A stretch of DNA of 64,000 bases from IMG/VR virus record IMGVR_UViG_3300044949_001928, positions 1-64,000 of that record; one strand, 5' to 3'. The number at the start of each line of letters is the position of its first letter. Position 1 is the stretch's first letter. Of this stretch, positions 163-58,619 are shown piece after piece. This DNA is from a virus. The notes below the pieces were generated by a model. That model was given only the letters and a program-made list of their open reading frames with translations, did no database searches and was not told the origin of the DNA. Both the position numbers and the translations under genes were made by a program.

Positions 163-354
163 TCAGACGCGGCGGGCGCCGTCCTTGGTCAGGTCGGACC
201 AGAAGGCGCGCGCTTCGGTGCGGCTCATCTGAAAGGTGCCAGTGACCTGCCAGCGGCCAGTGCGGCCGTTTAGCGCTTGACGAAGCACGCTGATACCGGA
301 TTGATTAGGGGTGAAGGAGAACGTTTGGCAGCCGTCGGAGAGGGTGTGGGTCAT
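163..354 (-). CDS. Small protein, unknown
   Basis: A 63-residue protein. The start at 354 was chosen because the upstream ATG at 378 lies in the GCCACACC leader element shared by early genes of this phage, and the extended -10 sits at 403-411. The C-terminal part is helical and charged (EARAFWSDLTKDGARR). No domain is recognised. It is the last of a leftward cluster behind the helicase gene. Confidence 0.5.
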   Translation of the reverse strand: MTHTLSDGCQTFSFTPNQSGISVLRQALNGRTGRWQVTGTFQMSRTEARAFWSDLTKDGARRV

Positions 355-402
355 GACTGGTGGTTTGCGGTGTGGCATCGGGTCTCTCGCCCCGACCTCC
401 AT

Positions 403-411
403 ACTGTAACA
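403..411 (-). promoter_or_regulatory. Extended -10 promoter, TGTTACAGT
   Basis: Reads TGTTACAGT leftward, matching the TGnTAnnnT class seen at other early genes. The GCCACAC leader element follows at 370-376 and the ATG at 354. Confidence 0.5.
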
Positions 412-458
412 ACTGGCGCACAGGCTGGCGACCCTTCGCGTGGTCTGTTTACAAACTG

Positions 459-620
459 TCATGTATGACCAGCCAGTCGTGCCGGCACGTACTTCAGGCG
501 AGAACCAGACGCAGCTAGGCGGGCGTTCACCGCGGCGATCTCCTCCTCACTGGCCACCACCGCGTAGCGGATCGTGCCGGTATCGCGGTTGATGAGCAGC
601 CAGGGCAGCCGCTCACTCAT
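459..620 (-). CDS. Small protein, unknown (53 aa)
   Basis: Starts at an ATG that overlaps the stop of the helicase gene (ATGA at 617-620), a sign of translational coupling. The protein begins MSERLPWLLINRDTG and has a helical middle (SEEEIAAVNARLAA). No family is recognised. The intact frame and exact coupling make it a credible gene; its role is unknown. Confidence 0.6.
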   Translation of the reverse strand: MSERLPWLLINRDTGTIRYAVVASEEEIAAVNARLAASGSRLKYVPARLAGHT

Positions 621-1954
621 CCCCCCGCCCTCGCCAGCCGCGCCGCCAGGACGTGCTGAGCCCAGCCGCGGGGGTTCTTCATCCCGCGCTGCTTCCCCAG
701 TTCCACCAGCTCCTCCAGCGTCTGCGCCGTGCCCTGCTCCCGGCGGCGCTCACGGCGCTGCATCTCCACCTCCACCAGCTCGCCCTCGATGTGCTCCAAC
801 TCGCGGCGTTCTGCCACGAATTCATGACCGCAATGTGGGCACCTTGGCTTGCGGCTCTCAACCACGTTGAAGCAGCCAGGGCAAACCTTGAGCGAGAGAG
901 AGGCTTCGCGGGATTTCTTGGCGTGGCCGTAGAGGCTCCACTCGCGCTCCACCAGGGGGTGGTCAAGGCGGTTCGGGTCTGAGTTCCCAACATGATCAAG
1001 GATAATCAAGTCTTCTTTGCCGGGTGCAATTCGCATCCCTCGGCCGCAGCCCTGCAGCCAGTCCACCAGGCTGGCAGTCTTGCGCAGCCACAGCACCGCG
1101 TCGATCTCCGGCACGTCCACCCCGGCGATCCAGAGCTTCGCGCAGGCCACCAGGTCAAGCCTGCCGGCGCGGAGACCCCTGACGGCCTCCTTGCGCTGGT
1201 CCTTACTGCTGTGACCGTGAACGGCCATCGCCCGGTAGCCGGCGCGTCTCCACTGGTTAGCAACCGCTTCGGAGTGGGAAATGCTCATGCAGAATGACAC
1301 GCCTCGCCGGCCGGTGCAGTGTTGCCTCCAGTGGGAGAGGGCATCGCCGACCGCGAAGGTTCCGTCCTTCGAGATGCTCGCCAGGTTCGGATTGAACAGG
1401 CGCACCTTGGCCAGCAGGCCCTCCTCCATAAGCTCCAAGGTGGAGCAGGTCAGCACCAGGTGGTCGAAAACCTCAATCAGCCCGCGGTTGTCCAACCGCT
1501 GGGGGGTGCCGGTCAGGCCAAGCAGCAGGGGCCGGCCCATGCCGTTGATCACCTTCACGTAGGTGTCCGCCACGGCAAGGTGGCATTCGTCGATGATGAT
1601 CAGATCGGGCCGGGGCAGGTTGCGCCTGCCGATGGCGGCTGCGGCGGTTTGCACCATCACAACTTGCACGGGCCAGGTAAAATCGACGGGCCGGCCTGAG
1701 CGAATTTGGCCAAAATTGATACCAGCCGCTATGAGTCGCTCGGCGGTGTCGTCGAGGATCTCCTCCAGGTGGGCGAGGAACCAGACGCGCTTTCCTTTGG
1801 CGATGGCGCGTCGGACAATTTCCGTGGCGGTGGCCGTCTTGCCGAACCCTGTGGGCGCCACCAGGATCGGGGCGCGAAAGCCTTGCCTGTAGGCGTGCTG
1901 AACGTCACGGAGGGCCTTGTCTTGGCGGGGGCGGAGCGTGAGGGCGAGGGTCAC
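617..1954 (-). CDS. Superfamily 2 DNA helicase, DECH box
   Basis: A 445-residue SF2 helicase. Walker A is APTGFGKT near residue 34, the Walker B/DECH motif is IIIDECH near 118, and TGTP follows as motif III. The C-terminal RecA-like domain ends in QGCGRGMR (motif VI). A zinc ribbon with two CxxC pairs sits near residues 355-375, in front of a charged helical tail. It should unwind DNA or remodel forks in phage replication or recombination. It overlaps its upstream neighbour by ATGA (1951-1954) and its downstream neighbour the same way, so the genes form a coupled leftward operon. Confidence 0.9.
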   Translation of the reverse strand: MTLALTLRPRQDKALRDVQHAYRQGFRAPILVAPTGFGKTATATEIVRRAIAKGKRVWFLAHLEEILDDTAERLIAAGINFGQIRSGRPVDFTWPVQVVMVQTAAAAIGRRNLPRPDLIIIDECHLAVADTYVKVINGMGRPLLLGLTGTPQRLDNRGLIEVFDHLVLTCSTLELMEEGLLAKVRLFNPNLASISKDGTFAVGDALSHWRQHCTGRRGVSFCMSISHSEAVANQWRRAGYRAMAVHGHSSKDQRKEAVRGLRAGRLDLVACAKLWIAGVDVPEIDAVLWLRKTASLVDWLQGCGRGMRIAPGKEDLIILDHVGNSDPNRLDHPLVEREWSLYGHAKKSREASLSLKVCPGCFNVVESRKPRCPHCGHEFVAERRELEHIEGELVEVEMQRRERRREQGTAQTLEELVELGKQRGMKNPRGWAQHVLAARLARAGG

Positions 1955-56794: not shown

Positions 56795-57258
56795 TGATTC
56801 TCCTGTTGATGAGTAGGATTCATGGCTGCAAGTTCCCGGCGAGCGTAGGCCCAGCCGCATCGAATTCCGCGAGCCCATGCCGTGTCCGCAATATCCTCTG
56901 CTCTCCATTCCTCTGGGCAATCCGGCAACTCCGGCCATTCCGCTGGCGCCGGGGTCGGCGCGGCATACAACGCCATGTCACAGTCGCTATACCGCTCCCT
57001 CCAGCCGCTGAATGACTGGCGCTTCTCCGCGGCGGCCATGAAGTCGCCGGAATTGCACCATGCCACTGGCGCCGGAGGCGGGGCGGCGGCCGGGGGCGGG
57101 GCGGCCATGGCGGCTTGCCGAAGCAGCTGCCGTATCGCCTCGCTGTTGGCCGTGATCACTCGCGAGGAGAGCGCAATGGCGTTGTTGGCGTTGCCAAAGA
57201 ACTGCTCGTTTACCGCCTCCACCAGTTCAATCAACGCATCGCGAATAGGATCACTCAT
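56791..57258 (-). CDS. Early PIRDAL-module protein (155 aa)
   Basis: Starts MSDPIRDALIELVEAVNEQ, a paralogue of the N-terminus at 56387. Ala/Pro-rich linker, then an acidic C-terminal part with Trp (EDIADTAWARGIRCGWAYAR). ATG overlaps the FGE gene end. Function unknown. Confidence 0.55.
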   Translation of the reverse strand: MSDPIRDALIELVEAVNEQFFGNANNAIALSSRVITANSEAIRQLLRQAAMAAPPPAAAPPPAPVAWCNSGDFMAAAEKRQSFSGWRERYSDCDMALYAAPTPAPAEWPELPDCPEEWRAEDIADTAWARGIRCGWAYARRELAAMNPTHQQENQ

Positions 57259-58426
57259 CACCACCCTCCCATGCGCTGCCATCAACAGGGGCTCCCTCGT
57301 AGTTCGGGTGCCATTGATCTAGGCACCATTCCCATACGTTGCCGTGCATGTCGTACAACCCCCAGTCATTGGGCGGGAATATTCCTACCGGTGTGGTCTG
57401 CTGGCGATATTCGCCGCGGGGGCCACCGTTATAGGTGTAGCCCCCATCGTAATTAGCTTGGTCTGGGGTTATGGTTTTGCCAAAGTGAAACGGCGTGGTA
57501 GTGCCAGCTCGGCAGGCATACTCCCATTGAGCCTCACTGGGCAAGGTGTAGGTGTCGCCGGTTTGCTCGCTCAGCCGCTGGCAGAATTCCATGGCGTCAT
57601 GCCAACTTACGCACTCTACAGGGAGGTCTTCGCCCTTGAAGTGGGAGGGGTTGTCTCCCATGACACTCACCCATTGCGCCTGGGTGATGGGGAATTGGCT
57701 CATCCAGAAGGTTTCTAGAGTTACCTTGTGTTGAGGTGATTCGCTGGCGAAGTGGCTTTCCTCGCTGGTGGGTGAGCCCATCAAGAAGCTACCGGTTGGG
57801 ATTTTCACCATCACAATATCGGTGGCGGGAGCTTGGGAGGTGACGCGGAACCCAACGAAGCCGTTGGAGTTGGCCGGGTGCTCCCTGCCCCGGTAGGCCG
57901 AGCGGCAGTCCTGAGGAGCGTCGAACCAGGAGCCGCCGCGCAGAACTCGGAAAATTCGAGACATGATGCCAAGGGTGGGATGGGAGAGGCAACACACACG
58001 GAAGCCGATGAAGTTGATGGCATAGGCGGGGTGGAGGTAGGTGCGGCAGGCCGAGCGGCAGGGCACCGGGAGGCTGCGCCAGGAGCCGCCGCGCAATATG
58101 CGGAAAATTCGAGCCATGATGCTGGGGGTGGGGTGGGGGAAGCGACAGACGCGGAAACCGCCAAGGGTGGAGGAGAGATCGGAAGGGCTGTAGAAGCGGG
58201 AGGCCGAGCGGCAGTAACCCGGTTTATTGATCCAGGATCCACCGCGCAATACTCGGAGAATTAGAGCCACGATGCTGGGGCTGGGTTGAGAGATGCAGAC
58301 AACACGGAAGCCGATGCCGTAGTTGAAGGCAAAGGCGGGGTGGTAGCTGAGACGGCGGGCCGAGCGGCAGCCCTGGGGACTGCTAAAGCAGGAGCCACCG
58401 CGCAGCAGGCGTTCCTTAGAAAACAT
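57251..58426 (-). CDS. FGE-fold protein with four tandem variable modules
   Basis: A 391-residue protein in one frame. Residues 1 to about 200 hold four copies of a 51-52 residue unit (RGGSW-xxx-P-xx-CRSA-x-R ... GFRV). A formylglycine-generating-enzyme-type domain follows (about 205-391: KIPTGSFLMGSP, VSWHDAMEFC, LPSEAQWEYACRAG, GNVWEWC). In usual FGE-type proteins the RGGSW-GFRV unit is the C-terminus after GNVWEWC; here the domain stops after GSAWEGGDE and the units come first. The variable codons are mostly NNC/NNT, and CRSA is conserved base for base. This is the pattern of DGR variable regions. The active-site Cys pair of FGE is not recognisable, so binding rather than catalysis is likely. 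Confidence 0.75.
   Translation of the reverse strand: MFSKERLLRGGSCFSSPQGCRSARRLSYHPAFAFNYGIGFRVVCISQPSPSIVALILRVLRGGSWINKPGYCRSASRFYSPSDLSSTLGGFRVCRFPHPTPSIMARIFRILRGGSWRSLPVPCRSACRTYLHPAYAINFIGFRVCCLSHPTLGIMSRIFRVLRGGSWFDAPQDCRSAYRGREHPANSNGFVGFRVTSQAPATDIVMVKIPTGSFLMGSPTSEESHFASESPQHKVTLETFWMSQFPITQAQWVSVMGDNPSHFKGEDLPVECVSWHDAMEFCQRLSEQTGDTYTLPSEAQWEYACRAGTTTPFHFGKTITPDQANYDGGYTYNGGPRGEYRQQTTPVGIFPPNDWGLYDMHGNVWEWCLDQWHPNYEGAPVDGSAWEGGDE
57841..58405 (-). repeat. Four tandem DGR-like variable regions
   Basis: Cores at about 58301-58405, 58149-58250, 57993-58096 and 57841-57943, with a 153-156 bp period. A 13-mer (CTGCCGCTCGGCC) is identical in all four. No template repeat, with AAC codons at the variable sites, is found in the window. 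Confidence 0.75.
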
Positions 58427-58619
58427 CGACAAGCCCCGCCGCACGATCTACCAGGGCAGCGTCAGCGAAACGATTTTCTCTGCGCAATGCAATGACCAGT
58501 GCGGACAGTCGCTCAGAGAACTCTTCATTCGACAAGGCGGCGCACGCGTCTTTGGCGCTGCTTATTTTCTCATTGAGATGAACCAGCTCGGGCAGTTCGG
58601 CAGGGAAAACGATCGGCAT
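58416..58619 (-). CDS. Small helical early protein ahead of the FGE gene (67 aa)
   Basis: ATG 58619, downstream of an early promoter (58634-58655). All helical (PELVHLNEKISSAKDACAAL, LSALVIALRRENRFADAALV). It overlaps the FGE-like gene by 11 nt and is cotranscribed with it. A link to the variable protein is possible but unproven. Confidence 0.6.
   Translation of the reverse strand: MPIVFPAELPELVHLNEKISSAKDACAALSNEEFSERLSALVIALRRENRFADAALVDRAAGLVDVF

Follow-up and report, generated by a model that had tools for sequence, protein, structure and literature searches.

Arrays of hypervariable segments in cyanophages without a detected reverse transcriptase, possibly diversified in trans

A phage inferred to infect freshwater picocyanobacteria encodes a protein with four stacked segments that behave as variable regions (VRs) of a diversity-generating retroelement (DGR), two of which are directly shown to vary, almost exclusively at positions where template repeats (TRs) of Cyanobium bacteria have an adenine. 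No reverse transcriptase (RT) was found in the record of this phage or in 48 related or VR-array phage records, while bacteria related to its likely host carry DGR-type RTs with closely matching templates. We consider it fairly likely that these are VR arrays of RT-less phages, diversified in trans, most likely by the DGR of the host, although the exact TR has not been found, the host is inferred, and rewriting in place has not been separated from recombination.

The Array Gene and Its Phage

The window analyzed here is a stretch of 64,000 nucleotides, part of a 65,114-bp virus record (IMGVR_UViG_3300044949_001928) that encodes terminase, portal, major head, tape measure, primase, helicase, SSB, Sak4-like annealing protein and endolysin genes. 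The closest named portal proteins are from Synechococcus and Prochlorococcus phages (S-CRES3, S-CBS2, PSS2), and the closest primase is from Synechococcus phage S-H1. The array gene lies near the replication-type genes and not in the tail cluster, tightly packed among small genes. The features of the locus are as follows.

58416..58619, minus strand: upstream small ORF (67 aa) whose TAA overlaps the ATG of the array gene (tight operon; supports the start at 58426)
57251..58426, minus strand: permuted VR array plus FGE-like protein (391 aa)
58301..58402, minus strand: unit 1, VR-like, with RGGSC and one extra codon; identical in the sister phage (locus L001)
58148..58246, minus strand: unit 2, VR-like; absent from L001 (deletion of about one repeat length)
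57995..58093, minus strand: unit 3, a VR close to the class-A Cyanobium TR
57842..57940, minus strand: unit 4, a VR close to the class-B Cyanobium TR (TGGTTC..CCTCA..CGGAACAGS), directly joined to the FGE domain
57254..57811, minus strand: FGE-like domain without its own C-terminal RGGSW..GFRV segment
56791..57258, minus strand: downstream ORF starting ATGA across the stop of the array gene; no Pfam family

The ORF starts with ATG at 58426, and an upstream GTG at 58444 keeps the frame open. The four units, of 33-34 residues (RGGSW...GFRV) with linkers, have start-to-start spacing of 156, 153 and 153 bp, and the tandem repeat scores 375 in TRF. The sequence-only reading, which had described four tandem DGR-like units in a permuted order in front of an FGE-fold domain, is thus confirmed, with the corrections that unit 1 has RGGSC instead of RGGSW and one extra codon, and that variability is shown directly only for units 3 and 4. 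TGCCGCTCGGCC, encoding CRSA, is identical in all four units, and nearly all variable codons end in C or T. The Pfam family FGE-sulfatase (PF03781) covers the protein at E=5.6e-64 with five stretches. Each unit matches profile positions ~213-254 of 255, the last segment of the FGE/C-type-lectin fold, and the following domain matches positions 5-211, so the order is truly permuted, with the C-terminal segment multiplied and placed in front. All four units are at the 5' end of the gene and not, as in a standard DGR target, at the 3' end.

Variation at Template Adenines

Evidence for targeted mutation is presented by the sister phage L001, which carries the same permuted gene with three units. The FGE part differs between the two phages at only 6 of 564 bases, unit 1 is identical and unit 2 is missing, while units 3 and 4 differ at 13 and 16 bases, respectively. 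With Cyanobium TRs as an independent ruler (that of locus L013 for unit 3), 13/13 and 15/16 of these differences fall at template A (Fisher p about 1e-9 and 3e-11), that is 28 of 29 in total, and none falls at a third codon position. The interpretation offered by the sequence-only reading, of DGR variable regions with mutagenesis supplied from outside the window or by the host in trans, is supported by this pattern, as well as by the presence of A-specific templates in Cyanobium and the absence of a detected RT from the phage record and of a TR from the window, though the part on supply from the host remains an inference.

A decaying relic, with the units as dead copies of an FGE gene end fused by chance, could be considered, as unit 1 has lost the W, carries an extra codon and is frozen, unit 2 is lost in L001, and some relatives have units in the wrong frame. 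We find this very unlikely, as the ORF stays open through all units, with in-frame spacing and with start and stop codons overlapping those of its neighbors, as units 3 and 4 differ almost only at TR-A sites with no stop codons and no synonymous drift, and as the architecture recurs in other phages.

Import of ready-made VRs by homologous recombination with hypervariable FGE genes of the host, without any mutagenesis on phage DNA, is a possibility that we hold to be doubtful. The VRs share CGCGGCGG..TGG, TGCCGCTCGGCC and GGCTTCCG blocks with host targets, and host genomes hold many VR copies. Further, between positions 57240 and 58520 of the window, the array gene and its upstream start are about 99-100% identical to those of L001, while neighboring DNA is mostly 81-91% identical, suggesting recent exchange of this locus. 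However, idiosyncratic non-A bases of units 3 and 4 are the same in both sister phages while the A sites change, and import would need donors with the same unusual non-A bases. As in-place retrohoming would also need a matching template, this argument is not decisive.

Templates and Reverse Transcriptases

A search for a TR-like pattern identified only one phage record (L009/G008) but complete DGRs in picocyanobacteria, represented by Cyanobium Cruz CV13-4-11 (L013), Cyanobium LBMAG epi.bin3 (L032) and an uncultured cyanobacterium MAG (L023, in which the RT end lies just upstream of the TR). The TR lies just after the RT in L013 and L032, and downstream of RTs in the further loci L052, L060, L062 and L069. 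The TRs come in two classes, A, SWNNNPRNCRSAYRN.N..., and B, SWFNEPHNCRAANRNSNHPANINTN..., with unit 3 resembling class A and unit 4 resembling class B, and the 3' VR tails resemble the TR tail (GGCTTCCGYGTNTGTTGCCTC). No TR matches unit 3 or unit 4 at every non-A base, the best real TRs leaving 6/73 and 12/76 non-A mismatches, respectively, and thus the cognate template is unseen. A TR inferred from the VRs of related class-I phages (see below), with adenines filled in by the NNC rule and thus partly assumed, matches a Cyanobium TR at 95% over 120 nt. Ten of 42 genomes of the genus have matches.

Seven host RTs share the invariant DGR-type motif LPIGNLTSQ, and this picocyanobacterial clade (A4) is 62-71% identical to its first member. 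NCBIfam and PADLOC gave no specific DGR name for the host RT, the best hits being generic RT or group II intron models. In Cyanobium L013 (1-1490, plus strand) a gene fusing a phage lysozyme domain to a hypervariable FGE domain is positioned beside the RT and TR.

In contrast, a search for RVT_1 gave no matches in any of 49 phage records, including eleven of 60-88 kb, while the same search finds the Cyanobium RTs. Within the window, the CRSA core with up to 3 mismatches occurs only in the units (3 hits; 0.03 expected by chance). A scan of IMG/VR with the RT alignment found 114 phage RTs, the best of which do not exceed 45% identity to the picocyanobacterial clade. The phage may nevertheless have a DGR of its own, with RT and TR in unassembled sequence or carried by a co-infecting phage or satellite, as the IMG/VR records are called linear and may be fragments, and as DGR-like RTs are common in phages. 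One array phage (L009/G008; IMG/VR 3300046777_002218, 348-887, plus strand; also locus L118) carries an unmutated TR-like unit (NNNPRNCRSAYRNHNEPDNANNNVGFRV) in frame before a mutated VR, in an ORF without an FGE domain or RT, and this may be a phage-borne template for a host RT. Against a phage-encoded DGR stand the lack of an RT in all the records searched, the distance of the best IMG/VR phage RTs from the picocyanobacterial clade, and the recurrence of record lengths of 64.1-65.1 kb, which suggests near-complete genomes, and we consider this explanation unlikely.

Recurrence in Other Cyanophages

Two searches for closely spaced VRs identified many more phage records, in two classes. Class I is represented by canonical FGE genes followed by VR1 and VR2 at 124, 127 or 130 bp, without exception 1 mod 3 (L002, L003, L004, L007, L130, L138, L221-L225, L235), so the FGE frame enters VR2 but reads VR1 out of frame, as a Pro/Ala/Ser/Thr-rich stretch. 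Class II is represented by VRs before an FGE domain (the window phage, L001, L134 with two units, and L132, L137/L131 and L136 with one), or by VR-only arrays and fusions to non-FGE proteins (G008, with three units in a 292-aa ORF, and L136, with four units). One example is L140 (1937-3532, plus strand), with one VR in front of the FGE domain and at least six behind it, most out of frame and two with identical unit sequence. Another example is L123, in which three VR units (1159-2034) and one VR unit (1977-2660) are fused to the N-termini of non-FGE proteins of the same phage record. A phage record without RT, L005 (2502-6014, plus strand), encodes four complete FGE target genes in tandem, each with a C-terminal VR, and a three-VR tandem array in different frames is found in a bacterial assembly (L079, 1469-1922; Cyanobium genome G019, contig C150), possibly a prophage or phage contig. 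The number of units changes by whole repeats (window versus L001; L223 versus L230).

In six class-I phages, every one of 26 template adenines is variable both in VR2 (32 variable columns, p=2e-18) and in the out-of-frame VR1 (38 columns, p=5e-15). Since VR1 is not translated in the VR frame within the FGE protein, selection on that protein surface cannot easily create the pattern, and we take this to mean that the mutagenesis acts on DNA and not by protein selection. Ordinary positive selection on a binding surface without any retroelement, while compatible with all 19 changed codons in units 3 and 4 being nonsynonymous, is thus strongly disfavored, also because near-matching TRs are present beside DGR RTs in likely hosts. 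An (AAC)n template gives NNC, NCN or CNN codons in the three frames (NNC, 15 residues; NCN, only A/P/S/T; CNN, only H/L/P/Q/R), none of which can be a stop, and VR1 in the FGE frame is 73% P/A/S/T.

Predicted Fold

An AlphaFold model of the whole protein with 13 sequences was not interpretable (mean pLDDT 46). A model of unit 4 plus FGE, from an alignment of 43 sequences, gave pLDDT 71.5 and pTM 0.76, confident for the FGE core and fair for the GFRV region, which forms a strand before the FGE start (block pLDDT 70-89), but with values <50 for residues 1-29 and the variable loop unresolved, and thus circular permutation is plausible but unproven. Foldseek matches of the model include FGE, PvdO and the DGR protein TvpA.

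A Model for Diversification in Trans

In the model we favor, the gene is a DGR target of a picocyanobacterial siphovirus that has no DGR of its own, and each unit is a VR that was multiplied and moved in front of a scaffold missing that segment. An RT and A-rich templates supplied in trans, most likely by the Cyanobium-type host, would produce cDNA mutated at template adenines that overwrites single units, while units are also gained and lost by whole-repeat duplication and deletion. Unit 4 probably takes the vacant C-terminal place of the fold, by circular permutation, and units 1-3 would add further variable surfaces. The product is probably an early intracellular protein facing variable host or competitor partners. 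One host target (L023) is a WD40-FGE-VR protein next to an AAA ATPase, similar in outline to the putative conflict systems described by Dore 2024 (PMC10907252), and a phage decoy of the host's hypervariable FGE sensors is a speculative role.

In a broader form, which we consider about as likely as not, a group of cyanophages carries no DGR but keeps arrays of DGR landing sites that grow and shrink by whole units and are detached from the canonical C-terminal position by circular permutation, so that the host's own hypermutation machinery diversifies phage proteins in trans, with out-of-frame VRs, stop-free in all three frames, serving as diversified linkers. If the host supplies the mutagenesis, phages can gain targeted protein hypervariation without carrying the machinery, and surveys that look for VRs near an RT miss this class (remote targets are stated not to be detected in Roux 2021, PMC8144416). 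These arrays also offer a natural test of whether a DGR can act between two replicators, of how many VRs one scaffold tolerates, and of VR mutation without selection, in the out-of-frame copies.

Comparison with Known Systems

Remote targets within one genome and tandem VR domains are already known (PMC7517822, PMC10907252), while no report of RT-less phage VR arrays, or of host DGRs acting on phage targets, was found in an incomplete collection of open-access literature. The FGE-like C-type-lectin DGR variable protein TvpA of Treponema denticola (PDB 2Y3C) is matched by the structural model at E=5.8e-6. Bordetella phage BPP-1 (PMC3240598) likewise diversifies a phage gene, by A-specific mutagenic retrohoming into a VR of the C-type-lectin fold (Mtd), but it encodes its RT and TR beside one C-terminal VR in a tail protein, while here no RT was detected in the phage record and no TR in the window, several VRs are present, and the gene is near replication genes. 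Cyanobacterial DGR targets with FGE/CLec domains (Vallota-Eastman 2020, PMC7517822) share the fold and the kind of VR, and include remote targets without a neighboring RT, but there VR matches lie "exclusively" near the 3' end of the CLec gene and the RT is in the same genome, while here the VRs are N-terminal and stacked, in phages without a detected RT. The DGRs of Thiohalocapsa PB-PSB1 (Dore 2024, PMC10907252) include targets with several VRs in tandem CLec domains, diversified in trans by an RT and TR elsewhere, with unequal activity of VRs within one target, but these are all within one bacterial genome and whole CLec domains are repeated, while here only the VR segment is repeated, and target and RT appear to be in different replicators.
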